A stretch of DNA of 64,000 bases, taken from Gilliamella sp. App4-10. Lineage in GTDB: Bacteria; Pseudomonadota; Gammaproteobacteria; Enterobacterales; Orbaceae. Position numbers and translations under genes: made by a program. Below are positions 44,862 to 58,886 of this stretch, piece by piece. The notes below the pieces were generated by a model. The model saw only the letters and a program-made list of their open reading frames with translations, ran no database searches and was not told the origin of the DNA. The stretch lies in contig NZ_LZGS01000018.1 in the NCBI RefSeq assembly GCF_001690495.1, forward strand, positions 62,001-126,000. Direction: 5' to 3'. Numbering within the stretch: the stretch's first letter is position 1; the number at the start of each line of letters is the position of its first letter.

Positions 44862-44937
<76 letters not shown>

Positions 44938-45050
44938 ATTCATAATATATAGAGCTGTACTATAATATACAACTTAATAATTTTTAATTAATATTTAGTT
45001 GTTTTTCGTATGCTGAGATGTACCCAAATATACCCACAGGGACTCAAATT

Positions 45051-45081
45051 TAGTACACTTCGAGTTCGAGCTAGTACACTT
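45051..45081 (+). repeat. Paired TAGTACACTT repeats inside attL
   Basis: TAGTACACTT occurs at 45051-45060 and 45072-45081, 21 bases apart (two helical turns). The same word recurs inside the right end (58790-58799, with a truncated copy at 58802). This is the arrangement expected of integrase arm-type binding sites. The role is inferred. Confidence 0.5.
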
Positions 45082-45156
45082 TTATCTTTTAAACGAACCT
45101 CTTATTTTATATAATAATTCTGCCTTTTAGTTTGATTTCTAAAGGAGAGTTTTATT

Positions 45157-46453
45157 ATGGCTTTAACTGAAATTGCCGTTCGTAATGCCAAACCAAAACA
45201 AAAAAGATATACCCATCAATGATGATGAAGGTTTAAGCCTTTGTGTCGCCCCTTGTGGCGGTAAATGTTGGCACTTTCGATTCAGTTGGCAAGGGAAACA
45301 ACCGAGAATCTCATTGGCACCTATCCAGAACTTGTTGTCACTGAAAGAAGTAAGATTGAAGCGTGATGATTACCGCGCTGATTATTGCCAAAGGAACAGA
45401 TCCCCGTCCAGGGCACCGTCGTGCTGCTCAAGCTAAAATGGAAATCTTGGACGAAGAAGGATATGAAGCACATCATAACACTTCATTGACATTGGAAATG
45501 TTTATCCCAAGATGGAAAGCCCTAAAATTTAAAAGTTGGGCATTGATGACCCTAAACGTCGTAATTCGACTAAAACTCAAATTGAACGTTATTTAAAAAA
45601 AGATATATTACCGATACTGGGCATTATTCCTATTGAGAAAATCACCCTGAGAGATATTCAGCAAGTGTTGCGTAAAGTAGAAAATCGTGGTGCATTGTCG
45701 ATTGCTGAGAAGCTGCGATGTTGGCTAATTGATATTTTCCGACATGCCATGCTCGATGGGTTAATCAAAACCAATCCAACCACGGATATTGGTTTTTTAG
45801 CTCTCCCTAAACCAGCCCCAAAAAATAACTCTCACTTGGAGATGCAGGATATTCCTAGGTTTTTAATAGCGTTATCTCGTTATCCGGGGGATATACAAAC
45901 TAAACTGGCACTCAAGTTGTTGTTATTAACTGGGGGTAGACCAGGTGAGTTAAGGTTTTCAAAACTAGAACAATTTGATTTAGATAATCAGGTATGGACG
46001 ATCCCCGCAGGGGAAATTAAACAATTTAAGCGTTTAGTCAACGCTGGGCACGTTATTCCAGATTATGTCATTCCGCTATCAAGACAAGCCGTCAATATTG
46101 TTAGAGAATTATTATCGCTGCGTTATGCTAATCAGCCCTATTTGCTGTGTGGTCGAGGCAAGCCTCATCAGCCCGTAAGTGAAAACACGTTTAATCAAGG
46201 GATTAAACGCATTGGGTATGATAAAAAACTGACGGCTCACGGCTTAAGAGGAATGCTTTCTACTGCACTCTATGAGCTCGATTATGAAGGATGATGGATT
46301 GAAGCTCAGCTTTCTCATCAGGATAAAAATCAAGTCAGACGGGCTTACAATCACGCTAAGTATATTCCTCAGCGTCAACGAATGATGCAAGAATGGGCAG
46401 ATAGACTTGATAAGTGGCAACAAGAAGCCCTAGATAAACGTCCTAATCAATAA
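45157..46453 (+). pseudogene. P4-type tyrosine integrase, disrupted
   Basis: Starts at ATG 45157 after AAAGGAGAG with MALTEIAVRNAKPKQK, the usual start of tRNA-targeting integrases. Reading then needs several frame changes (near 45215, 45320-45360 and 45530). The catalytic domain (GGRPGELRFSKLEQFDLDN, with the first Arg; AHGLRGMLSTALYE; SHQDKNQVRRAYNHAKYI) is complete except for a TGA at 46292-46294, where the family has glycine-tryptophan-type sequence. It lies directly next to attL in the expected orientation. It cannot make a functional recombinase as written. Confidence 0.88.
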
Positions 46454-46582
46454 TCCATACAATAAGGGCGCTTTTAGAGTACCATTTTTATTTGATCGAC
46501 AAAACAGATTAATAGTATCTTTCTTGATTCATTTAAACGATTTTTATATCACGCCATAGTTTGTTATAACAAAAAGAAAACC

Positions 46583-46771
46583 ATGAGCTTTCACTATGCC
46601 TAATGTCGAAGTTATTCGTTCAGTTTTACTTATCAAGGAGTGTATGGCTATCACTCACGCGGCTTAAATACGCAGCATCCCATTCAACGTGAGCTGTTGC
46701 TTTATGTTTTGAGTGAAAAGCAAAGAGAATTGGCATTGGTATTAAGTCCTCCCAAAACAAAAGATGACTGA
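46583..46771 (+). pseudogene. Small island ORF with internal stop
   Basis: A 63-codon frame from ATG 46583 has a TAA at codon 7 but then stays open with protein-like text (TYQGVYGYHSRGLNTQHPIQ, then LLLYVLSEKQRELALVLSPP) to a TGA at 46771. I do not recognise the family; it may be a small phage/island accessory gene that has lost its start. Flanking sequence (46454-46582 and 46772-46884) shows nothing else. Confidence 0.4.
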
Positions 46772-46884
46772 TTTCATTCACGTAAAATTTTGCATTGATG
46801 TGTTAACGATGCTCGATCCATTTAACTTATTTTGTGTGCTATTTCAATTTTTTTACACTAAAATCGATTGAAATTCGCATTTTA

Positions 46885-46904
46885 TACTGTATGTTTATAC
46901 ACAT
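46885..46904 (+). promoter_or_regulatory. LexA operator (SOS box) upstream of umuD
   Basis: TACTGTATGTTTATACACAT fits the SOS-box pattern CTG-N10-CAG with one mismatch (CAC) and keeps the AT alternation. It lies 69 bases before the umuD start, so the pair should be induced by DNA damage. Confidence 0.7.
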
Positions 46905-46972
46905 TCTTTTTTTACTACGATAATTAAAATAACAGTGGTGATGTTCTTTACTTTAGTTTTAGGAGTCGTTTC

Positions 46973-47422
46973 TTGCACAAATCAGGTTGTATTGTGCTTG
47001 GCCGTGTTGACGTTTCTATTTTAAATCAGTTGCCTTTAGTGGAGACACCTGTTAGAGCAGGTTTCCCCTCGCCTGCGGATGATTATTTGGAAGCTAAACT
47101 GGATTTAACTGAGCATTTAGTCAAACACCAAAGCGCGACTTATTATATTAAAGCGATGGGCGATTCGATGATAGATTACGGTATTTTTAGTGGTGATTTA
47201 CTGACCGTTGATCGTTCTTTAACCCCACAGGTTGATGATGTGGTGATTGCGGCCATTGATGGTGAGTTCACCTGTAAGTGCCTTGGCGTAATGAATGGTC
47301 AATATCATTTATTAGCCGGTAATGCGCTTTATCCGCCGATCCCGTTGATGGATAAAGAGGTGCATATTTGGGGTGTGGTGATTCATACCATCCATTCATT
47401 ACGCGGGCGTGGTCATTCGTGA
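46973..47422 (+). CDS. umuD: UmuD-like translesion polymerase subunit
   Basis: A 149-residue LexA/UmuD-type self-cleaving serine peptidase. The cleavage site is RAGFPSPADDY (Ala-Gly), catalytic Ser in KAMGDSMIDYG and catalytic Lys in DGEFTCKCLG. After RecA-stimulated cleavage UmuD' joins UmuC to form polymerase V. The start codon is TTG, with AGGAG nine bases upstream. Sequence is nearer to mobile-element versions (RumA/MucA type). An SOS box lies upstream, and the umuC start overlaps its stop (GTGA). Confidence 0.9.
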   Translation: MHKSGCIVLGRVDVSILNQLPLVETPVRAGFPSPADDYLEAKLDLTEHLVKHQSATYYIKAMGDSMIDYGIFSGDLLTVDRSLTPQVDDVVIAAIDGEFTCKCLGVMNGQYHLLAGNALYPPIPLMDKEVHIWGVVIHTIHSLRGRGHS

Positions 47423-48681
47423 TTGGGTTAGTGGATTGTAATAATTTTTATGCCTCTTGTGAACGGGTATATAATCCTAAGCTTGAGGGACAACCGATTG
47501 GTATTTTATCTAATAATGATGGTTGTGTGATAGCGCGTTCGAATGAATTAAAACCACTTGTTCCGATGGGGATGCCTGCCTTTAAGATTCTACCGGCTAT
47601 TCGTAAGCAAGTGACGTTATTAAGCTCTAATTACGTGTATGGTGATATGAGTCGGCGTGTCTTTAATACGGTACGTGATTACACAGCAGATGTAGAATCT
47701 TATTCTATTGATGAAGCATTTATTGCATTAGATGGATTTTCTGATGTTATTTCGCATTGTCAGCACATCCGAGCGGTGGTGAAACGTGACACGGGTATAC
47801 CCGTTAGTATTGGTATTGCTTCCACGCGGACTTTAGCCAAAGTGGCGAATCATATCGCTAAAAAACAAACCAGCTATCTAGGTGTCTGTTATTTAGCAAA
47901 TGACAGCGCTTTGTTGACTGAAACTTTAAAGCAGTTTACTGTCGGTGAAGTATGGGGTGTTGGACGGTGTATTGCCGAGAAACTACAAACGTTAGGTATT
48001 CATACTGCATGGGATTTACGCCAAGCGAATACTAAACAAATTCGGCAGCAGTTTTCGGTGGTGCTTGAGCATACGGTGTTAGAATTACAAGGCGCTTCTT
48101 GCATCGAATTAGATGATGTATCAACGCCAAAACAAAATATAATGACTTCGCGTAGCTTTGGTCAGCTAACTGGTGAGTTATTTGATTTACAAGAAGCCAT
48201 ACGTGTACACGCCAGTCGAGTTGCTGAAAAACTCCGACATCAACACTCGGTTGCCAGTGCCGTGCTGGTCTTTTTAAAAACCAATCGTTTTCGTGAGGAT
48301 GTTGTGCAATATCATCCCTCTATCGTGGTGTCTCTCTCCCTACCTACTGATAATTCACGACTGATTATTCAAGCCGCACAAAAAGGATTATAGGCTATTT
48401 ACAGAAAAGGTTTTTTGTTTATGAAGGCTGGGGTGATGTTGCTTGACTTACGCACTAAGTATATGGATTCGCAGTTTGATTTATTTGAAACATCCCATAA
48501 TGTAGTGCAAAAGCAAAAAAGTGATAGGTTGATGCAGACACTCGATGCGATCAATCAGAAGATGGGTAAACATACTGTGCAGTTAGGTGGTATTAGAAAA
48601 CAAGCCCCTTGGCAAATTAAACATGAATTACTGAGTCCGCGTTATACCACACGGTGGGATGAGTTGTTAGTGGTTAAATAA
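47419..48681 (+). pseudogene. umuC: UmuC-like translesion polymerase, interrupted by an amber codon
   Basis: A Y-family DNA polymerase. The start GTG 47419 overlaps the umuD stop; ALVDCNNFYASCERV-type GLVDCNNFYASCERVYNP, SNNDGCVIARSNE, YSIDEAFIAL and SIGIASTRTLAKVANH give the catalytic palm and fingers. After residue 324 (AAQKGL) an in-frame TAG (48391-48393) interrupts the gene, and the same frame continues with AIYRKGFLFMKAGVMLLDL to 48681, the normal end. The little-finger/UmuD'- and beta-clamp-binding end is therefore lost unless the amber codon is read through. No frameshift is needed. Confidence 0.85.
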
Positions 48682-48774
48682 ACGAAGCATTATTGCGTTT
48701 ATATAAACCAAATTGTGTTATTTAAAATACAATGTGTTTTATTCAGTTCAACAATTTTTATAATTCAATTGAAA

Positions 48775-50296
48775 TTATATCGTTTTGTTTTTATTGGTAA
48801 TAATCTTTAAATAGGGATTGTTATAAACAATATCAGGAATAAGCATTGTCGGGTCATCAAATAAATAACCATGTGCTTTTTTAGTACTTTTGGGGCCTTC
48901 AACCGCACAAGTCCAGATACTATAGCCATCTTCTAATCGTTTGTGGTATTTGAGCTTTTCAAAGGCTTTTTGCATATATCGCCAGGCAGGTGTTTTGTCA
49001 GCTTTAGCAACCTGTTGCACTTGAGGAAATTCCATCACGTAACGCATAAAAATACCGGGTGTAACAATAAAAATCGTTTCATCCACCGTATGAATAACGC
49101 TTGGGGTTCGTTAATGATGAGTTTTTGCATTAAGATAGCTTCTTTTACCAGTGCATAAAATGCTCACCCGAGGGAGGTTATTTCATCGATTTGCTTCATT
49201 ACTTGTTTTTCCATTGCGGTAAATTCAACGACAGGGGTTCCTTTTTCAGTATTCGCTTCCAATATTAAATTTTGCTGATTTATTTGATTAGCAGTGATTG
49301 GATTATCAATGATTGGGTGGGGGTCATTTTGATTGATTTCAGTGACAATAAATTGATTGGGCGTGGCTTCTGACTCCGTTTGTTCATTATCATTCATACC
49401 TAATAAATTGAATACTGCATCTAAGCTATCCGCTAGTGGTGGATGACTGTTTGGTGTATTAACCGTGTCAAGTTCATCAATTATGTTGGGTGTATTTTTC
49501 TTTGAGGTTATGGTCGGTATGTCTTGTACGGGCGTTTCATCTACAGTTTCGGTTGTATTGCTGTCATCTTTTGACAGATTTATGACGACTGTTCCATCAA
49601 AAGCAGATGGTTTTTCTTCTGGCCATATCAATGAAGGCATCACTTTTAAAAAGGTAAAGGGTTGAGACCAACCATTACTGTGACTTGTAACGGTGGCGTT
49701 CCAAATGGCTTTATCTTCAGTTATGCTTAAAATAATATGATGTTCTTGTAAAGTGGTGAAGAGTATCGAATTTTTGGAGGGAATACCTTCAATGCCTTGG
49801 GATAATAAATAAGCTCTGAGCTATCGGAAACGGTTTTGCTCACTAACCACAAACTATCTTCAGTTAACCAACCATCACTCGGTCCACTGTTGTTCAGTTT
49901 AAGTTCTTCTTTAACCAGGTAACGTAACTCATCAAGCAGTTTGCGTTGCAGTGAATGTTTAGGTGAGTTCATCACTTGGTCGATATTACCGCCTAACGAA
50001 TGTGAGACGGACGCTTGATCAGCTTTAGTAACAAGTTCACCAACAACACCAGAAAGTTCCGTTTGCCCGGCCACAAAATAAGTAAACAATGGCCATAATT
50101 CGTGACTTTCGGCTAACCAATCGAGTAACTGAGTATCAATTATTTGCCGATATAACAGTCCAATACTGACGCTGTGCAAACGATACTCACGATTTTTACG
50201 ATATTGAAATCGATAAGGTGCTTTCAAAGCGCCTTGCCACGGATGCCATGCTAAGCCATCTTGGTATTCAACATGGATATCAACGGCAATCTTACC
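48775..50296 (-). pseudogene. MobH-type relaxase (TraI_2/DUF1528), decayed and truncated
   Basis: Read on the minus strand, GKIAVDIHVEYQDGLAWHPWQG leads to PYRFQYRKNREYRLHSVSIG, then WLTEDSLWLVSKTVSD, PSKNSILFTTLQEH, MPSLIWPEEKPSAFDGTVV and finally DGYSIWTCAVEGPKSTKKAHGYLFDDP. These blocks are typical of the relaxase of SXT/R391-like and related integrative conjugative elements. A frameshift near 49800, a TGA at 49164 and another frameshift near 49085 break the frame. The 5' part is replaced by an IS3 transposase fragment. The protein would have nicked oriT to start conjugative transfer. Confidence 0.75.
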
Positions 50297-51239
50297 ATCA
50301 TACGGGCACCCTTTACGGATTAATGAGCGTTTAATACCAAATTCGGTTAAACATTCATCAATTAGATGATTATCGAACTCTTTTCCTCTATCTGAGTGAA
50401 AAACTCAATAGACTGTAAGTTCATGGGTATTTGACTGATGGCTTGCATGACCAATGTCGATGTTTTATGCCTACCAGCACTTCGCCCAATTATCTCTCGA
50501 TTACTGATATCAACGATGACACACAGGTAGTGCCAACGTTGTTTAACCCTCACATAGGTTAAATCAGTCACCAAAATTTTTCGTGGTTGACCTATCTCAA
50601 ACTCACGATTAAGTTCATTCCCCACTCTCGATTCATTACTTTTTTCTGCATGAAAACGGTATTTTTTGCTGGTGTATTTTTACACCCAGCCATTTTTCGC
50701 CATGATTCGACCTGTTCGCCGGCGGGATAAGGCTATACCTTGCTTGCTAAGCGCTGCTTTCATGCGCCTTGTACCATAGGATTGATAATTATCATCAAAG
50801 ATTTTAGCCACTATTTCGCTGAGCACGATATCTTGTCGTTGCCCGGGCAATTGCCGTTGATAATAGAAACGATTTCTTGCTATGTTTAAGCACCGACATA
50901 ATGCACGTAAAGGGTATCGATGCTGATTGTCTGCAATTAACTTGATTTTCGTCCCATTATCAACGCTGCTTGCTTTAGGATATCATTCTCCATTAACAAA
51001 CGTTTGTTCTCTTTGCGTATTGCGATAAGCTCGTTCTCTTCAGCGCTACGATTGTCTTTTGCTGTGAATGCGCCGGTAGTTTGGTATTGCGTTATCCACT
51101 TATCTAATGCCGATTTGGTGAGGTCATATTCGGCAACGATATCAGCGCGTTTTTTGCCATTTTGATACAGCATGACCATCTGTTTTTTAAATTCATTGGT
51201 GAATGTTCGTTTTTCTCTTCGGATTAAATTGATTGTCAT
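50297..51239 (-). mobile_element. IS3-family element, truncated
   Basis: OrfA is intact (50937-51239, 100 residues: FTNEFKKQMVMLYQNGKK, then a helix-turn-helix and leucine-zipper helix). OrfB follows (YPLRALCRCLNIARNRFYYQ, GTRRMKAALSKQG, VTDLTYVRVKQRWHYLCVIVD, HSDRGKEFDNHLIDECL) but has an in-frame TAA after NGWV (about 50680), a frameshift near 50395, and stops abruptly at KGCPYD, where it joins the relaxase remnant. The third catalytic residue and right inverted repeat are gone. It cannot transpose alone. Confidence 0.85.
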
Positions 51240-51329
51240 TGTTGGTACCTTCTTTTATTTTTAGGTTATCATAACAATGACCTTATAAAACTGGTACTAA
51301 TTAGGGTAGGCTATCCAAGATATGGTTGA

Positions 51330-51516
51330 ATATGCACGAGGTCAATCTATCTTTTCCAATAGCCTAAAGGAAAAGATAGGGAGTGAAACGTGTGGCCTAA
51401 AACAGACATTGCAAGACTACCAGCCCCTAATCCGATACGACTATGGAATTGGATCAGCATCATGGTACTGGTATTTGTGTGTGTATTATTTTTTATGCTG
51501 TTTATTACTCCTGTGA
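51330..51516 (+). pseudogene. Possible conjugation-gene remnant cut by the IS6 element
   Basis: A GTG at 51390, with AGGGAGTGAAAC before it, opens MWPKTDIARLPAPNPIRLWN followed by a membrane helix (WISIMVLVFVCVLFFMLFI), and runs into the IS6 left end. An overlapping upstream frame (VEYARGQSIFSNSLKEKIG) could be the tail of the preceding gene. Position beside a MobH relaxase and the overlapping-gene style suggest transfer genes (coupling protein end and small membrane protein). The family is not firmly recognised. Confidence 0.35.
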
Positions 51517-52319
51517 GGGTACTGTCAAATTAACTTCCAATGACGAATTTTAATTTAGCTGGTTAATCTCTAGTTTTGAATTTTAGGCACAACTTGGGTA
51601 ATTATGCCCCATTCCTTAAATCGACGTTCAACTAAAATACGAAAGGTTTTAGCTGAACATAAATACCTGGTACAATTGAAATAATCGTAAATATTGCCAA
51701 AACACGATAAGAATATTGAGCTTGTTTTAAGGATTTAAATCTACGCATTTTCTTTTCTCTCAGCCTTGTTGGTTGATGAGAATTTTCAGCGCGATTATTC
51801 GCGTATCGTTGAGTCACATACGGCACATTAAAAAGTAATGTTTTAAACGGTTTGATATAGCTTTTAAGCTTATCCGTCACTACTTTAGAAATAGATTTTG
51901 TAGCGGATTTTCTTATCTTTTTAATAAATCTTGAAGCAGCTTTACTGTCCCTTTTTTCTTGAACTAGCACATCGATCGTTTGGCTATCTTGATCAACCGC
52001 TCGCCATAAATAAACACGTTTACCGTTAATTTTACAAAAAACTTCATCGATATAAACATCATCGCCATACCGTTTGGTCTTTTTAATTCTTTTAGCATAA
52101 AGCGTTCCAAATTTAACACACCAATAATGAATGGATTCATAAGTAACAGAAATGCCTTTTTGCATCATAATAAGTTCAATATTGCGATAGCTTAAGGCGA
52201 AGCGATAATAGAGCCAGACACAATGACTAATAATAGCTGCTGGATAACGATGACGTTGATAGATTTTATTTGTTTTCATCTGTATGATTATACAAAAGAT
52301 GAGTTAACTTGACAGTACC
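51517..52319 (-). mobile_element. IS6-family insertion sequence
   Basis: 803 bp bounded by near-perfect inverted repeats GGTACTGTCAAATTAACT (left) and GGTACTGTCAAGTTAACT (right, on the opposite strand), one mismatch in 18. It encodes one transposase. The eight bases outside each end (CCTGTGAG and GCAATCAG) do not match, so there is no target-site duplication. Confidence 0.92.
51632..52279 (-). CDS. IS6-family transposase
   Basis: A 215-residue DDE transposase. RHRYPAAIISHCVWLYYRF is the family start; VYIDEVFCKINGKRVYLWRAVDQD holds the first and second acidic residues, VVTDKLKSYIKPF the second D block, and RAENSHQPTRLREKKMRRFKS the glutamate and R/K motif. It appears full length, so the element may be active. 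The IS6 family moves by cointegrate formation or targeted replicative transposition. Confidence 0.93.
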   Translation of the reverse strand: MKTNKIYQRHRYPAAIISHCVWLYYRFALSYRNIELIMMQKGISVTYESIHYWCVKFGTLYAKRIKKTKRYGDDVYIDEVFCKINGKRVYLWRAVDQDSQTIDVLVQEKRDSKAASRFIKKIRKSATKSISKVVTDKLKSYIKPFKTLLFNVPYVTQRYANNRAENSHQPTRLREKKMRRFKSLKQAQYSYRVLAIFTIISIVPGIYVQLKPFVF

Positions 52320-52327
52320 GCAATCAG

Positions 52328-52350
52328 AGGTGCTTTTAAAGCACCTTTTT
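52328..52350 (+). terminator. Terminator of a lost plus-strand gene
   Basis: AGGTGCTTT/AAAGCACCT stem followed by five T on the plus strand, lying just outside the IS6 right end. There is no plus-strand gene left upstream, so it is probably the relic end of an older transcription unit. It now separates the IS from the minus-strand metabolic operon. Confidence 0.65.
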
Positions 52351-52457
52351 ATTTCAATTGATAAAACTGATCGATTATTCAATTTATTTACTTAGGACTT
52401 TAGGTATGTTAAAAATCTCGAGTAAACAAAGAATACTTTTAAATTAAGAAAGTCGAT

Positions 52458-52739
52458 TTATTTTGAAGATAGACTCGGCGATAATTTCGTTGCATTAAAC
52501 AACGTGTAGTCAAAATCTACGAGGTCATAAATATAAAAAGGATCATTTTTCATAATATCTTTTGCTTCTTCAATCGAATCACTCATTACTAAAATTATAC
52601 CGCTTGTTTTACTCTCTAAAAGTCCAGATGCCAAAAATTTATTTTGAGCGAAATAATTATCTAAAAACACATTATGTTCGTCCAGTTTTGCAAGAATTTC
52701 AGGCATCGGTTTTTTAAACTTTAGGGCTGCAATTATCAC
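52458..52739 (-). CDS. YciI-like (DGPF/dimeric alpha-beta barrel) protein
   Basis: A 93-residue protein of the YciI fold. The pattern is FLDNYFAQNKFLASGLLESKTSGIILV, then ...SIEEAKDIMKNDPFYIYDLVDFDYTLF, where the conserved ND-PF turn is typical. YciI-like proteins are small dimeric barrels; some act in secondary metabolism as dehydratase/chlorohydrolase-like enzymes. It is the last gene of the AfsA-like operon, 30 bases after the second dehydrogenase. Role unknown. Confidence 0.75.
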   Translation of the reverse strand: MIIAALKFKKPMPEILAKLDEHNVFLDNYFAQNKFLASGLLESKTSGIILVMSDSIEEAKDIMKNDPFYIYDLVDFDYTLFNATKLSPSLSSK

Positions 52740-52769
52740 TTTATTCTCCTTGTATAATAAAAACTAAAT

Positions 52770-53513
52770 TTAACGTAGTAGGTTTCGTATCTCAAAAAAA
52801 TCACCAGATGTGATTTGTAAGTTTTCAATGTTATTTAAAACATAAATCAATTCCTGTGCTCGCTGTTGGGCGGTTACTATATAGCCCTCAATTTTAGATA
52901 AACGTTCAGCTAGCTTTTTTAGTTCTAAAAACTGGTCTATATCTGGATTATCTAAAGCCATCACACGAGAAACAGTTGAATCAAAAATACACAATCCAAT
53001 GGCTGCAAAAAATAGATGCGGATTTTCTAGTGCATATATTTTTATCATCATATTTAATGCCGCTTTAGACACAGCATAAACAGACATTCCTTCTCTCGGA
53101 CGAACTCCGGCAATGGAACTTGATATTATAATTTGTTCTAGCAACAGCTTTTCATTATTTAGAAAAAAATCTAGTAATACTTTATAAGAAAATAGATTTA
53201 CTGACATAACGTAGTTAAAATCGTCAAGACACAATTTATCTAATCGGCTAAGTTTATGAATCAAACCAGCATTTAAATACAAACGATCGATCTTTGTAAT
53301 TTGCTTTAATGCAGAAAACTCTTCTAAATGTTCAATTATATATTTTGATTGTGATAAATCGATACTATGATGGTAAAAATGCTCATATTCTTGTAGATCA
53401 TCACATTTACTACGCGAAATGCCATACACGCGGTCACCCTGTTCTAGGTGATAAAGAGCGAGTTCTCGACCGATTCCCTTGCTTACACCAGAGATAAAAA
53501 TATTTTTTTGCAT
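52770..53513 (-). CDS. Short-chain dehydrogenase/reductase (second of two)
   Basis: A 247-residue classical SDR. GVSKGIGRELA binds NAD(P), NAGL is the structural motif, SSSIAGVRPREGMSVYAVSKAALN holds the catalytic Ser and Tyr-x3-Lys. It lies 11 bases after the first SDR. In gamma-butyrolactone pathways a ketoreductase of this fold reduces the acyl side-chain ketone; that role here is inferred from the operon. Confidence 0.85.
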   Translation of the reverse strand: MQKNIFISGVSKGIGRELALYHLEQGDRVYGISRSKCDDLQEYEHFYHHSIDLSQSKYIIEHLEEFSALKQITKIDRLYLNAGLIHKLSRLDKLCLDDFNYVMSVNLFSYKVLLDFFLNNEKLLLEQIIISSSIAGVRPREGMSVYAVSKAALNMMIKIYALENPHLFFAAIGLCIFDSTVSRVMALDNPDIDQFLELKKLAERLSKIEGYIVTAQQRAQELIYVLNNIENLQITSGDFFEIRNLLR

Positions 53514-53524
53514 AGTATTTACTT

Positions 53525-54310
53525 CTAATTAAATTTACCCGAGCTAAAACCGCCGTCAACAGGTAATATAATACCTGTGGTGTATGATGATTGTTGGCTT
53601 AATAACCACAAAATACTATTAGCTACTTCTTCTGCTGTGCCAAACTTTTTCATTGCTGTAATTGATAATTTTCTTTGAGTCTTCTCTGGGTTCTTTTTCA
53701 AATTTTCATCATTATTCATTCCGCCCAGTATAGGTCCTGGGGCTACAGCGTTGATGCGAATTGAGTGAGCATCATCATGATCAATAGCGCATTCTATAGC
53801 AGCGACTTGAGTTAACATATTCACTGCTGCTTTACTTACCGAATACGCTGCTTGCATTTTTAATGCCTGTAACCCTGCACAGGATGATACATTTACAATT
53901 GCACCATTTTTATTCTGAGAAATTAATTGAATCTCCCGTTTCAAACAATGTGCAGTTCCTGTTAGATTAATATCAATAATTTTTTTCCACTGGATAATAT
54001 CTAGCTCTGAAATATTGCTATAAGGGGCGGTCACCCCGGCATTATTTACAGCAAAATGCAAGGTACTATATTTGCTTTTAATCCGTTCAAAAGTATCATC
54101 AACATCTTCAGTATTTGCTATATTACACATAAAAAAGTCACATTTACCTTTTAACTCTTTTAATTCAGGCTTATCAACATTTCGTCCCAGCACTATTACA
54201 TTTGCTTTTAATTCAATGAGCTTTTGTACTAAATAAAGTCCCATACCATTTGTGCCGCCAACAACAACAATATTCTTATTTTCAAAATCGATATATTTCA
54301 TTTTAGTCAC
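53525..54310 (-). CDS. Short-chain dehydrogenase/reductase, FabG-like (first of two)
   Basis: A 261-residue SDR. The cofactor motif reads VVGGTNGMGLYLVQKL (GGTNGMG in place of TGxxxGIG), with NNAG, the catalytic block NVSSCAGLQALKMQAAYSVSKAAVN, and a C-terminus YTTGIILPVDGGFSSG typical of the FabG/3-ketoacyl reductase branch. Its GTG start overlaps the stop of the upstream reductase (GTGA); ATG 54301 is an alternative. Probably acts on a ketone in the operon's pathway. Confidence 0.87.
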   Translation of the reverse strand: MTKMKYIDFENKNIVVVGGTNGMGLYLVQKLIELKANVIVLGRNVDKPELKELKGKCDFFMCNIANTEDVDDTFERIKSKYSTLHFAVNNAGVTAPYSNISELDIIQWKKIIDINLTGTAHCLKREIQLISQNKNGAIVNVSSCAGLQALKMQAAYSVSKAAVNMLTQVAAIECAIDHDDAHSIRINAVAPGPILGGMNNDENLKKNPEKTQRKLSITAMKKFGTAEEVANSILWLLSQQSSYTTGIILPVDGGFSSGKFN

Positions 54311-55467
54311 TCATATTTAGTTTGAGGGTCTCTCAAATAATCCGGGTTAACACAACAATAAACTTGGTCTAATTTTGGATTGCTTTTATCTTGAAAACAA
54401 AAGCCATCAAATCTACAAGCATTCACTTTACTATTTTCGAAAAATTTGGGTAACAGCCTAGGATCGGCAAACAATGCTCTCGACATACCTATATAGTCGA
54501 TTTTATATCTTTGGAGTAATTCTTCTGCATCCGCTATTGAACTTACCAATCCCGTACAACCGACAGGAATTTTGGTTGTAAAAGACTTGATTATACTTGC
54601 ACCGGAGAAAATTCGATCTTTAATATCTTGATGATAACCGCTTAAAAATCGATGAAATGTCTCTCCTACGCACATCGAACATTCTATTCCGTCAATATTT
54701 AATTGTTCTAAATCACGGATTACTTCTTGCAAATATTCCGGTTTTTGTCCTTCCCCATTATCAAAGCAATCATCAATTCCTAGACGAACGAAAATACTTA
54801 AATTATTGTTTGTTTTAGCTTGAATCGCCTTAATTATTTTTATTAGTATGAGGGATCTTTTTTGAGGGGTTCCACCATAATCATCAACTCTTTTATTGGT
54901 ATATGGTGATAAAAAGCTACTTATCAAATACCCGTTAGCGGCCTGAATTTGAATGGCTTTTCCACCTGCCTGCTGAACTAACCATGCGGAATGAGCAAAT
55001 TCTTCGATTACAGTTTCAATATCATTTGATGACATTGCTATTACGCTATCCTCTGGGAATTTCTTTTTCATTTTTTGACAAAATTGCCCGCTAGGTGATA
55101 AGAGAGGGCAACCCGTGTACTTGGAAGAACCTTGAGCGCCATAATGTTGAAGCTGAACCACGACTAAAGCATTTTTTTCATGTGCATATTCAAAAATAGG
55201 CTTTAAAGCTTGCGCATGTTTCAATTCATATAAAGCTAATCCTCTTTCATGTAAATGAGAAAATGGTGATACTGTTGAATTGCCGATTTTTATCATACCA
55301 ACACCGCCGTCGATAATCTTTTTATAAAAATTGATTAATTCGTCGGAACATTCGCCAGAATGGTTTGCTAAATCTAGCCCTATTGATGATAAAAATAGTC
55401 TATTTTTAATTGAAATCCCACTTGCCAGTTTTAGAGATGACAAGAGGTATAAATCATTCATATGCAT
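54307..55467 (-). CDS. Old-yellow-enzyme family NADH:flavin oxidoreductase
   Basis: A 386-residue FMN TIM-barrel reductase. IKNRLFLSSIG near the start, VVQLQHYGAQG (FMN/substrate loop), IQIQAANGYLISSFLSPYTNKRVDDYGG and IGMSRALFADPRL are family blocks. The C-terminal cysteines (CRFDGFCFQ and VYCCVNPDY) recall the 4Fe-4S motif of the 2,4-dienoyl-CoA reductase branch, but the flavoprotein/NADPH domain of those enzymes is absent. It could reduce an activated C=C such as a butenolide. It overlaps the downstream SDR. Confidence 0.85.
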   Translation of the reverse strand: MHMNDLYLLSSLKLASGISIKNRLFLSSIGLDLANHSGECSDELINFYKKIIDGGVGMIKIGNSTVSPFSHLHERGLALYELKHAQALKPIFEYAHEKNALVVVQLQHYGAQGSSKYTGCPLLSPSGQFCQKMKKKFPEDSVIAMSSNDIETVIEEFAHSAWLVQQAGGKAIQIQAANGYLISSFLSPYTNKRVDDYGGTPQKRSLILIKIIKAIQAKTNNNLSIFVRLGIDDCFDNGEGQKPEYLQEVIRDLEQLNIDGIECSMCVGETFHRFLSGYHQDIKDRIFSGASIIKSFTTKIPVGCTGLVSSIADAEELLQRYKIDYIGMSRALFADPRLLPKFFENSKVNACRFDGFCFQDKSNPKLDQVYCCVNPDYLRDPQTKYE

Positions 55468-55482
55468 TTTTATCTCACTTTA

Positions 55483-56219
55483 TTAAATATCCAATGCTTC
55501 AAACATGGGGCGCTGGAAAAAAGAAGTATTGATCATATTATTTAATGTAAGTAATTGAGATTTAGATAAATCGTCGAATATTAAATGATGCCAATTATTA
55601 TTTGCTTCTTTTACTTCATATTGTTTTATTGAAAACTCGTACTTATCTTGTAGGATGACACTGGAAATATTTGTGATATCGTTTTCATCATCTTCGATTG
55701 TAACCCCTGTCAATGACAGAGATACTATTTTTTTACATAACTCCTTGCCGCTATCGCTCAATACTTTCAACGAAATATCTTTATTAAAGGGATAAAAATC
55801 ATGCGCCTTAGCATAATTTTCATTTCTCAAACGAGAGAAGATACTCATAGGAATAATTCCACCAACCAAACAGAATGTTCCTGTGAGTTTACCCCTTTGA
55901 TAAAACCAGGCTTTCTTTTCAATGGTCTTGGGTTTATATCTACGAACATGATCCTTATGAGAAAATAGCAACTCCACAGGATAAGACGAGACTGTATAGC
56001 CTAGAAAATTGACTTCGAGACTCGTCATAGAGATAGAAACTTCTTTGAATACATGCCCTGATATTGAGTAAACATAATCATATACTGCCTGCCTCGCAGC
56101 CTCGATCAACATCATTCCAGGAACGTGTTCATGGTTCTTTTTATAAAAATATTGATTTTCTGTATCATTGAATAAGAAATAAGAATAAACTGTAGCCGCA
56201 CTTTGTATGGCGGAAATTA
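55483..56219 (-). CDS. AfsA-like protein, C-terminal hotdog half (no ordinary start codon)
   Basis: The second AfsA (A-factor biosynthesis) hotdog domain. The family signature reads NHEHVPGMMLIEAARQA, followed by EVNFLGY, SYPVELLF and GKLTGTFCLVGG. The first ATG (56115) lies inside this signature, so translation must begin upstream, yet the frame back to a TGA holds no ATG, GTG or TTG; only ATA or ATT codons (56212-56219) are available. Adding one base to the A-run at 56220-56225 would join it to the upstream half in one frame. AfsA condenses a 3-oxoacyl chain with dihydroxyacetone phosphate. Homology is strong in the signature and weak elsewhere. Confidence 0.75.
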
Positions 56220-56621
56220 TTTTTTGTCATCATTACTAATTGAAGGAATATCTGGTAACAATCTGCTTCTAATTACCTCTTCTAAATGTAAAGGCATATA
56301 AGAGACAATCAATTCTAGAGTTTCATCATCACTTTTTTCATAAAAGCCAGATAACTGTATATCGGAAAAGAGTGTGCAAGCGAGGTCTTTTGTTATCTCT
56401 AACGGCAAGGTTCTGAGTATATAGACATAGTGATCTTCAGATTTACACTGTTTATAAACAGATCTAAATAAGTGCTCTTGCTCAGGATTATGTAGTATTA
56501 AATCATTAAAATCGTTTTCTTCAATTTTATTAATTAATACAATATTCGACTCATAAATAAGTACATCTTCTAATTCTGATTTATGAACTAGATAAGAATT
56601 AACAAGCTTTTTCTTGCACAT
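56217..56621 (-). CDS. AfsA-like protein, N-terminal half (ends at A-run then stop)
   Basis: 134 residues from ATG 56621 (AAAGG site eight bases before). It begins KKKLVNSYLVHKSELEDVLI, which resembles the start of AfsA/ScbA proteins (LVHR-x-VQDAF pattern). It ends in ISNDDKK with the codons GAC AAA AAA TAA. The next frame (-1) then carries the C-terminal AfsA domain. A single missing A, a programmed -1 shift, or coupled re-initiation would each explain this. If joined the protein is about 380 residues, longer than typical AfsA (about 300). Confidence 0.65.
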   Translation of the reverse strand: MCKKKLVNSYLVHKSELEDVLIYESNIVLINKIEENDFNDLILHNPEQEHLFRSVYKQCKSEDHYVYILRTLPLEITKDLACTLFSDIQLSGFYEKSDDETLELIVSYMPLHLEEVIRSRLLPDIPSISNDDKK

Positions 56622-56635
56622 GTTCACTACCTTTG

Positions 56636-57148
56636 TTAACAATTAATATTTCCAAATAATTTATAAACAATATATGGATGTATAATAGAAACAGGCGCTA
56701 TATATAGTTTTCCCAAAAAATGATGAATCTTAACTGAAGTAATGAAGTATAATTTTTTTTTATGATCATTAGTTTCAATAATACGTATACATATACAAAC
56801 ATCGAGATGAAAATCTTTTACAATTAATGTAAGCGTATCTCTTTCTTTCTCGATAATTGTAAAAAAATGAACTGTACTGCCTATATCGTGTTCTTTTTCT
56901 TTCAGATTATCAAATCCATTAATAGGTTTGATTCCGACTCTTTTTCCTAAAAAATCCCTAATTCTAAACAGTCCCTCCATCCATTTTGGTTGGCAAGACG
57001 TCATCATTTTATAAGCCTCGTATGCAGTAACATTTTTGCAAATATCCAAACATTGATAACTTAAATAATCAACACTTTCGTCTATTAATGTTATGTTATT
57101 CAATAGACCATTGAGTGTTTTAATAGTAGCCTTTTGCTTTTTGTTCAT
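56636..57148 (-). CDS. DUF2867 family protein
   Basis: A 170-residue protein with the DUF2867 pattern: AYEAYKMMTSCQPKWMEGLF, RIRDFLGKRVGIK, then ...TVHFFTIIEKERDTLTLIVKD and HHFLGKLYIAPVSIIHPYIV. Function is unknown; the fold is thought to be SRPBCC-like and members often neighbour oxidoreductases. Its start overlaps the end of the upstream oxidoreductase gene by 29 bases; its stop lies 14 bases before the AfsA-like start. Confidence 0.75.
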   Translation of the reverse strand: MNKKQKATIKTLNGLLNNITLIDESVDYLSYQCLDICKNVTAYEAYKMMTSCQPKWMEGLFRIRDFLGKRVGIKPINGFDNLKEKEHDIGSTVHFFTIIEKERDTLTLIVKDFHLDVCICIRIIETNDHKKKLYFITSVKIHHFLGKLYIAPVSIIHPYIVYKLFGNINC

Positions 57149-57740
57149 AAGCTAAATTAATTAATTTTTTATATTGTTTTTCCTTCGGAATATATTCTGA
57201 AAAAATATACTCCTGGTAATCTTTAAAAATAGCATCTAATTGAGCTTGTTCTTTAATAAAAGCTGAACCGTAAATAAAAAAAGGATAGGTATATATACCA
57301 CCAACATATTCAATTGTTGTCTGCAAATTTCTTAATAACTCATTAATAGACACCCCTACAATACCGCCGGGAGTGTGCATTTGTTCTGTTCCGCCAATAG
57401 AAACGATGATGCTGAATTGCTTTCCAATGAGTTTCGTTCCCAATTGTTCGCCCTTTCTGCCGTAGGCAAAGCCAGGCAGAAAAACTTCATCAATCCATTT
57501 TTTTAATATTGCAGGGCAAGAATACCAATATAACGGGAATTGAAAGATGACACGTTCGGAATTTGATAAATGAAATTGTTCATCTTCTATATTGAAGTGA
57601 TTATCTATACAAGACTCTGAGATATTGCGAATAATCAGGTTTTCTGAAGTAAATGGAGTTAATTTTTCTATTAAGGTTCTATTAACAATAGATACATCTA
57701 GATTTGGGTGAGCAAGCAAAAGTAATGATTTCTTGATTAT
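57120..57740 (-). CDS. Flavodoxin-fold NAD(P)H oxidoreductase with apparent ATA start
   Basis: A Flavodoxin_2-type quinone/flavin reductase. After a beta-strand LLLLAHPNLDVS (phosphate-binding start), FQFPLYWYSCPAILKKWIDEVFLPGFAYG is diagnostic, with GGTEQMHTPGG later. The frame upstream of residue 1 contains ATAATCAAGAAATCA preceded by AGGGG at ideal spacing, so the natural start is ATA (57738-57740). The first conventional codon, TTG 57719, has no good ribosome site and would cut the first strand. Length 206. First gene of the operon. Confidence 0.8.
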   Translation of the reverse strand: MIKKSLLLLAHPNLDVSIVNRTLIEKLTPFTSENLIIRNISESCIDNHFNIEDEQFHLSNSERVIFQFPLYWYSCPAILKKWIDEVFLPGFAYGRKGEQLGTKLIGKQFSIIVSIGGTEQMHTPGGIVGVSINELLRNLQTTIEYVGGIYTYPFFIYGSAFIKEQAQLDAIFKDYQEYIFSEYIPKEKQYKKLINLAYEQKAKGYY

Positions 57741-57814
57741 CTAAGTCCCCTAATTTTAGCCAACTGTGATACTCCAGTTAACTATTAATAACTTTTTTGA
57801 TTAATTTAATTACC

Positions 57815-57820
57815 ATTATA
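57815..57820 (-). promoter_or_regulatory. -10 element of the AfsA-like operon
   Basis: A perfect minus-strand TATAAT about 75 bases upstream of the first gene. A TTGTAG 19 bases further back is a weak -35. No operator repeat typical of a butyrolactone receptor is obvious. Confidence 0.4.
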
Positions 57821-57922
57821 GTGTATTTTCGTTAATTTGCTACAATAATTATTATAAATATTAATTTTTCAAAATTATGTAAAAATTTGTTTTACTGAAA
57901 ACTATTCCTTTCCACGAACTGA

Positions 57923-58639
57923 ATGAAAAAATTTCAGAAGCCCAATTTAGAGCCATGGTTAATTAAGTTCACATGAGTATCTTTACCACTCAAACATGAA
58001 GAAGGACTTTTTGAAGCGGCTTATTTGACCATAGCTAAAAATGTTGGAATCAATGTTCCTGATTGGTCGATTATCCCCGTAAAATCATTCAACTGGCTAG
58101 CAACGAAGCGTTTTGACTGTACTCCAATGGGGGGATGATATCACTTACAAAGTCTATGCTCCTTACTTAATGCAGACTTTAGAACACTTTTCCTCGATTA
58201 TATTGATCTGATTAAAGCGGGTCAAATACTATGTAAGAGTCCTGTTGTTGGTCAATTGCTATTTAGACGTGCTTTATTCAATCTTTTTAGTGCAAATCAG
58301 GATGACCACACTAAAAACTGGGCTTTTTTACAAAATGATGAAGGAGAATGGCGTCTATCACCTTTTTATGATATTACTTTTAGCCCAAGTATCAACGGTG
58401 AACACTGCACCGCATTTTGCGGTTATGGTAAAACCCCACCTAAAAAAGCAGTCCAAGAATTAGCAAATAAATCCAACTTTAATTGGATTCAGGCCAAACA
58501 AGTCATCGAAGAAATTGTGACTGAAATTCAATCTTTTCCTATAATCGCAAAAGATTTTGATATATCAAAAAATACAATAAAAATGATTAGTCGCTATCAA
58601 AATGATCTTTATATAAGCAATAAAGCGCTTCTGAAATAA
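57923..58639 (+). pseudogene. HipA-like kinase, decayed
   Basis: Three frames together read EAQFRAM, EAAYLTIAKNVGINVPDWSI, ATKRFDC, then NADFRTLFLDYIDLI, GQLLFRRALFNLFSANQDDHTKNWAFL (HipA catalytic motif N-DDH-KN) and WRLSPFYDITFSP. The kinase N-terminus is missing and frameshifts occur near 58000, 58100 and 58180-58260. Only the last 127 codons (58256-58639) are open. HipA kinases phosphorylate glutamyl-tRNA synthetase as toxin of hipBA; no hipB is seen. Confidence 0.8.
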
Positions 58640-58789
58640 ACGATGAATAATTGATTTTAAAAACACAGATTACACGACTCATATAACAAATATCCTTATA
58701 GTATTGGCCCAAGAAATACTATAAAGATAAGCATACTCACATCTTGTTTTTCACTCTGTATCTGTTATTATTTCACAACGTTATGAATT

Positions 58790-58810
58790 TAGTACACTTC
58801 TTAGTACACC
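58790..58810 (+). repeat. TAGTACAC repeats inside attR
   Basis: TAGTACACTT at 58790 and TAGTACACC at 58802, the same word as at 45051 and 45072 near attL; probable integrase arm sites. Confidence 0.5.
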
Positions 58811-58869
58811 AAGTTATATAGCGTAAATAATATGTATTAATAACAGCAGGTTATATATAAAATTTGAGG

Positions 58870-58886
58870 CTCGTTTCCCGCTCCAA
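58870..58886 (+). repeat. Right attachment site (attR)
   Basis: Exact 17-bp copy of the tRNA-Gly 3' end, not preceded by the rest of a tRNA. It closes the island. Confidence 0.9.

Follow-up and report, generated by a model that had tools for sequence, protein, structure and literature searches.

A conserved seven-gene operon with an AfsA-like protein on an integrative island of Gilliamella sp. App4-10

We analysed a stretch of 64,000 nucleotides (the window) from Gilliamella sp. App4-10. On its minus strand, positions 52458-57719 hold seven genes. By Pfam, they encode a Flavodoxin_2 protein (FLD), a DUF2867 protein, an AfsA-like protein, a flavoprotein of the old yellow enzyme (OYE) family, two short-chain dehydrogenases/reductases (SDR1 and SDR2) and a YCII-family protein. 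This operon recurs in other Gilliamella genomes, is maintained by purifying selection and lies on a degraded integrative element. We read it as an accessory biosynthetic operon of AfsA type that moves horizontally in bee-gut Gilliamella and that would make a small lactone, furan or cyclopentenone. We give this reading a probability of roughly 0.5.

Conservation, selection and island

The seven genes are closely packed. In the order of transcription, the Flavodoxin_2 gene overlaps the DUF2867 gene by 29 bp, and the latter overlaps the AfsA-like gene by 7 bp. A gap of 15 bp leads to the OYE gene, which overlaps SDR1 by 4 bp. Gaps of 11 and 30 bp then precede SDR2 and YCII, so that no overlap or gap in the operon exceeds 30 bp. 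The coordinates of the open reading frames (ORFs) and the Pfam matches confirm what the original prediction had described, seven functions on one strand with tight spacing.

The AfsA-like protein is present in 4 of 35 Gilliamella genomes, sampled as one genome per species. These are the window genome, wkB308, and two genomes labelled G008 and G005. All seven genes are intact and in the same order in wkB308 and G008. The G005 copy has a decayed DUF2867 gene, with stops in all three frames at its place. Among 119 relatives, the OYE is likewise confined to these four genomes. Its single close relative in a scan with one genome per species is the wkB308 protein, 93% identical to that of the window. 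Searching for the same seven-gene neighbourhood returned these copies and no others in the samples covered, and the set is absent from every fetched PF03756 neighbourhood outside the four genomes.

Beyond the genus, the profile of the AfsA-like protein matched its own genome alone in 369 genomes of the class and 398 of the phylum (draws spread evenly over larger groups). Matches to PF03756 appear in 11 of 149 relatives and in 5 of the 369 genomes drawn from the class, with 4 of these 5 above the cut-off. A weak match in genome G224 was set aside; judged by eye, its locus holds lipid A and outer membrane genes. Neither megablast nor tblastn gave plasmid matches, and tblastn gave none in phages. 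The viral contigs yielded 171 pattern matches and 0 relatives, and a PHROGs search returned nothing meaningful. Likewise, no homologue of the operon whose product is known was seen in the collections searched, which were samples or close-relative scans. An operon tied to an unrelated product, the finding that would have spoken against the original prediction, did not turn up there. The upstream regions of the four operons align poorly, and no shared operator is identifiable in them.

To describe selection, we used pairwise ratios of non-synonymous to synonymous divergence (dN/dS) across the copies. The values lie between 0.07 and 0.32 for all genes compared. It means that the operon is maintained by purifying selection. 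The AfsA-like gene is split in the window, and its pieces have dN/dS values of 0.09-0.26 in pairs with the window. Since the gene order recurs in other Gilliamella genomes and the ratios fall in this range, the gene set is more than a chance arrangement. Between the window and wkB308, the synonymous divergence (dS) of the operon is 0.27-0.72, far under that of two core genes (1.61 and 1.91). For this pair, the difference indicates lateral transfer within the genus.

The operon lies within an island, as had been predicted from the sequence. An integrase gene adjoins a tRNA-Gly gene, and the 3' end of this tRNA gene is repeated exactly, over 16 bp, at the other end of the island. When the window was shuffled 200 times by mononucleotides, no shuffle contained the repeat. 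An integrase beside a tRNA gene whose 3' end recurs as a direct repeat marks the region 44922-58885, about 14 kb, as a degraded integrative element that carries the operon. The tRNA-Gly gene stands beside the operon in three of the four genomes, at a distance of 599 bp in wkB308 and 352 bp in G008. G008 also shares with the window the order erpA-like gene, tRNA-Leu, tRNA-Gly and operon. No second copy of the 16-bp repeat was found in the fetched stretches of wkB308 and G008, and no tRNA in that of G005.

The AfsA-like protein and its partners

In the window, the AfsA-like gene is broken by a frame shift near position 56217. The three relatives have an intact ORF of 379-381 amino acids. A programmed frameshift was considered and rejected, as these relatives carry one uninterrupted ORF. 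The lesion is recent or a sequencing error, because the dN/dS values, including those of the split pieces, show that the operon is kept by selection.

The main open frame of the window reaches 38.5 bits against PF03756 and covers profile positions 12-126 of 133 (cut-off 24). The intact proteins score 32.1, 32.8 and 32.1 bits, all over the 24-bit gathering score. So, the AfsA-like hotdog of the original prediction matches the family beyond a short signature. The ATG-started ORF at 55483-56115 scores 13.6 bits by itself, and for this reason the family is easily missed.

The ScbA and BarX synthases have two hotdog repeats, each with an ExxRQ motif. Each of the intact operon proteins (n = 3) has one PF03756 stretch and one ExxRQ. 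Conversely, a protein of Gilliamella genome G027 has two stretches, and in it two repeats bearing ExxRQ are observed. The single ExxRQ of the operon protein falls in the stretch aligned to the ScbA model's second half; the match of the three intact proteins to the ScbA/BarX model NF041195 covers only residues 187-259 of 290. The profile found no relative of solved structure in PDB at E<=1. An AvrD identity was also rejected: the three intact proteins have no AvrD match in Pfam at E<=1, and PF03756 is their sole Pfam match. Judged by these profiles, the AfsA-like protein is a true member of PF03756 but not a canonical AfsA.

PilZ domains fold into a barrel of six to seven strands followed by a C-terminal helix. 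A PilZ-like fold at the C-terminus appears in one low-confidence predicted model of the wkB308 protein, and the fold comparison (VIA-align) reaches only the families in its list. At the sequence level, PF07238 gave no PilZ match for the C-terminal piece of the L014 protein at E<=10. Our own profile of 27 PilZ domains gave 5.3, 3.9, 2.7 and 0.5 bits, scores reached by 2, 3, 18 and 68 of 500 shuffles. Comparing a 12-sequence profile with PilZ by hhalign gave a probability of 0.3%. PilZ receptors of cyclic di-GMP (c-di-GMP) carry the motifs RxxxR and [DN]xSxxG. Here the second reads SxSxxG in the window and SxTxxG in wkB308, and RLRNExYxK replaces the first. Proteins with GGDEF or PilZ (PF07238) are found in 0 of the 35 Gilliamella genomes, and the genus seems to have no c-di-GMP system. 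We consider the predicted PilZ-like part the most interesting and the least certain point of the operon. If it holds, a fold whose main known role is to sense c-di-GMP would be joined to a lactone synthase in a genus with no GGDEF protein found.

Among the partners, the OYE-family protein passes PF00724 with 137.8 bits (cut-off 27). Classical and thermophilic-like ene-reductases of this family have a His/His (or His/Asn) pair and a tyrosine in the substrate site. The operon protein retains the tyrosine, and has QxxN where five aligned PDB sequences have HxxH. All four operons keep both this QxxN and a C-terminal cysteine pattern, CRxDGFC...CC. The cysteine region is spanned by the matches of the protein to long enoate-reductase-like models of NCBIfam, and the cysteines may descend from an Fe-S site.

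The Flavodoxin_2 protein is of the KefF/quinone-reductase type, although its L014 orthologue scores 116 bits for the NCBIfam KefF model, under the 210-bit cut-off. In the window, its ORF starts at an internal TTG, and homology to the relatives extends to about 57737. The ATG used by the three relatives is absent from the window (57720-57740). This missing start is a possible second lesion of the window copy. For the two small proteins, PDB offers little: at E<=0.1 it holds no solved relative of YCII, and no meaningful one of DUF2867. The YCII score rises to 30 bits for the wkB308 copy. The positions of all features are given in the table.

Table. Features of the operon and of the island in the window
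Feature	Position	Strand	Evidence
tRNA-Gly(GCC), island insertion site	44862..44937	+	last 16 bases (44922-44937) form the left repeat
Tyrosine integrase, 252-aa ORF, adjoining the tRNA	45536..46294	+	Phage_int_M 8.3e-17, Phage_integrase 3.9e-15
UmuD/UmuC-like pair	46973..48393	+	Peptidase_S24 1.3e-25, IMS 2.7e-30
TraI_2-type relaxase/helicase pieces	48775..50227 (48775-49086, C-terminal domain; 49727-50227)	-	TraI_2_C 6.6e-27, TraI_2 4.8e-34
Transposase ORFs adjoining the operon	50362..52279 (50362-50625, 50937-51239, 51632-52279)	-	rve, HTH_Tnp_1, DDE_Tnp_IS240
YCII-family protein, 93 aa	52458..52739	-	Pfam 3.3e-5; 24.7 bits, cut-off 24
SDR2, benzil-reductase-like, YxxxK	52770..53513	-	adh_short 9.9e-20
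SDR1, FabG/glucose-dehydrogenase-like, YxxxK	53525..54310	-	adh_short_C2 1.5e-48
OYE-family flavoprotein, 386 aa	54307..55467	-	Oxidored_FMN 6.9e-40
AfsA-like main piece, open frame of 247 aa	55483..56223	-	PF03756; 87% identical to wkB308 residues 135-381
Predicted PilZ-like C-terminal part	about 55507-55791	-	position transferred from the wkB308 model
AfsA hotdog with single ExxRQ motif	55876-56217	-	within the main AfsA-like piece
AfsA-like N-terminal piece, before the frame shift	56217..56642	-	83% identical to wkB308 residues 2-139
DUF2867 protein, 170 aa	56636..57148	-	PF11066 1.5e-19
Flavodoxin_2 protein, KefF/quinone-reductase type	57120..57719	-	Pfam 1.9e-33; PDB 5lva 1.4e-31
HipA C-terminal fragment, right island end	58256..58639	+	HipA_C 5e-18, profile 122-210 of 213
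Right repeat, identical to the last 16 bases of the tRNA-Gly gene (3' end); right island end	58870..58885	+	

Proposed pathway and rival readings

In Streptomyces, AfsA makes the butenolide precursor of A-factor-type signals, and the later steps are a C=C reduction and a ketone reduction. For the operon, the chemical steps, the product and the role are inferred. As far as the accessible part of the source goes, an AfsA-like domain of a Gram-negative bacterium condenses 3-ketothioesters with dihydroxyacetone phosphate in vitro (PMC7756379). In methylenomycin synthesis, according to the available portion of another report, the flavoenzyme MmyE acts after the butenolide synthase, seemingly with no net change in redox state (PMC12593393). 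By analogy with both, butenolide formation would be followed by reduction or dehydration of an enone and by carbonyl reduction. The AfsA-like protein would catalyse the condensation of a 3-oxoacyl thioester, supplied by primary (fatty-acid) metabolism, with either dihydroxyacetone phosphate or a different keto-sugar, and close the butenolide. The OYE-family flavoprotein may then reduce or dehydrate the enone, and SDR1 and SDR2 could set the carbonyl and alcohol states. The Flavodoxin_2 protein might provide reduced flavin or reduce a quinone-like intermediate, while YCII and DUF2867 may assist by isomerase, dehydratase or cyclase activity. Its product would serve the cell in its interactions with neighbours or the host. 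With a split synthase gene and a lost Flavodoxin_2 start, the pathway is probably inactive in the window genome.

Several observations weigh against this biosynthetic reading. The intact AfsA-like proteins reach 34.8, 35.3 and 31.1 bits for the ScbA/BarX equivalog NF041195, whose cut-off is 200 bits, and their N-terminal 135 residues have no family match. The operon has no gene for a phosphatase, an acyl-supply enzyme, a transporter or a regulator. One gene is broken in 2 of the 4 copies (AfsA in the window, DUF2867 in G005). The dS of the operon between the window and G008 (0.89-1.58) is not clearly under that of the core genes (1.34-1.57). Finally, the operon was found in four Gilliamella genomes alone, so comparison does not yield its product.

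The original prediction had also named a signal as a possible product. Its conserved AfsA-like operon on an island stands; the signal lacks support, and the synthase is not a canonical AfsA (31-35 against 200 bits). A true quorum signal of the Streptomyces kind, a butyrolactone or butenolide read by a dedicated receptor, would fit an AfsA-type synthase accompanied by candidates for the ene-reductase and the ketoreductase. However, a receptor of the ScbR/ArpA type (NF041196, 150-bit cut-off) was found in 0 of the 35 Gilliamella genomes, the best score being 58 bits. Generic matches of TetR level to this model occur in 35 of 35 Gilliamella genomes and also in controls (13 of 14 genomes), and the three of the window genome are not on the contig of the window. 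With a non-canonical synthase, a sporadic presence (4 of 35 genomes) and no regulator, transporter or phosphatase in the operon, we hold such a signal to be quite improbable.

Four of the seven genes encode redox enzymes, and relatives of two of these, of the KefF/NQO and OYE/NamA types, are known for the reduction of xenobiotics. The operon could therefore serve detoxification or catabolism: the OYE, quinone-reductase-like and SDR enzymes would clear reactive enones or quinones from pollen or the host, and the hotdog protein would be a thioesterase or hydratase. The missing phosphatase and transporter agree with this. On the other hand, the loss of the classical His/His pair in all four operons suggests an OYE with a special substrate. 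Members of the AfsA family with demonstrated activity make butenolides, as the seen part of PMC7756379 and general knowledge of the family indicate. We regard detoxification as unlikely. The state of the element raises another doubt, for the relaxase is in pieces, transposases adjoin the operon, and the lesions in the window (AfsA, Flavodoxin_2) and in G005 resemble decay. The operon could then be leftover cargo, functionless in every current host. Two wholly intact copies and the dN/dS range, which extends to the split AfsA pieces, make a relic very doubtful.

A bolder form of the biosynthetic reading can be drawn from the same proteins. The single-ExxRQ hotdog and a repurposed PilZ fold without the c-di-GMP signature would make a new architecture of butenolide synthase, working in a genus where no diguanylate cyclases were detected. 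The PilZ fold might, for example, help the protein to dimerise or to dock its substrate. Together with a QxxN OYE that is possibly redox-neutral, as proposed for MmyE, it would produce a methylenomycin-like small antibiotic or signal, in a system passed laterally among symbionts of the bee gut. This combination is speculative, and we think it improbable as a whole.

Other AfsA loci and known systems

At least two other AfsA types exist in the genus. The two-hotdog protein of G027 (L015:7270-8503, 106.7 bits) is followed by a small ORF like a carrier protein. It lies about 5 kb from a tRNA-Gly gene, with transposase ORFs between them, so two AfsA lineages that are unrelated to each other are found at one kind of tRNA gene. 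Truncated AfsA-like ORFs in G034 (L016:5242-5586, 114 aa) and G022 (L022:8204-8437, 77 aa) are apparently remnants of this type. The second type is a PF03756 protein of 250 amino acids. In wkB308 (L021:1898-10134), it is encoded with a thiolase, a HAD hydrolase, a tautomerase, an MFS protein, an SDR, an aldo-keto-reductase-like protein and unknown genes. The loci L018 and L019, of the same family, are similar, and PF03756 proteins near 250 amino acids are also present in G142, G120, G444 and G440. Profile comparison relates this type to the hotdog of the operon protein with 94% probability. The wkB308 locus resembles a full butyrolactone-type pathway more than the seven-gene operon does.

The butyrolactone class of antiSMASH is called from AfsA-type genes. 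As one of eight cluster types in 147 Gilliamella genomes, it is listed in the accessible part of a pan-genome paper, so butyrolactone clusters had been flagged in the genus before this operon (PMC9598484). That part reports the clusters without gene content (PMC9598484); the operon may or may not be one of them. In the literature searched, which was covered in part and does not imply absence from print, we found no account of the seven-gene operon.

The hormones of Streptomyces are the best-known products of AfsA-type pathways. A compact and laterally moving pathway of this type in a core bee-gut symbiont, intact in wkB308, would be a tractable system to study the roles of small molecules in an animal gut. 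With AfsA, ScbA and BarX (PF03756; NF041195), the operon protein shares the AfsA hotdog with ExxRQ and a score over the Pfam cut-off. It differs in having one ExxRQ rather than two hotdog repeats, an extra N-terminal region and a predicted PilZ-like C-terminal part. The phosphorylated butenolide synthase domain of the gladiostatin polyketide synthase (PKS) from Burkholderia gladioli is, in the excerpt available, likewise of AfsA type in a Gram-negative bacterium (PMC7756379). There it is a C-terminal PKS domain (PMC7756379), whereas in Gilliamella the AfsA-like protein is free, without a PKS, among redox enzymes. The methylenomycin genes (mmyD/mmyE) and the AvrD/syringolide system offer another comparison. 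As described in the part seen, MmyD is AvrD-like and the product is a small lactone or cyclopentanone antibiotic (PMC12593393), whereas the operon protein matches only PF03756 in Pfam and has no carrier protein or ketosynthase beside it. The likeness is one of gene types: in each of these systems, according to the same portion of the source, a butenolide synthase is encoded with flavoenzymes and other redox enzymes (PMC12593393).

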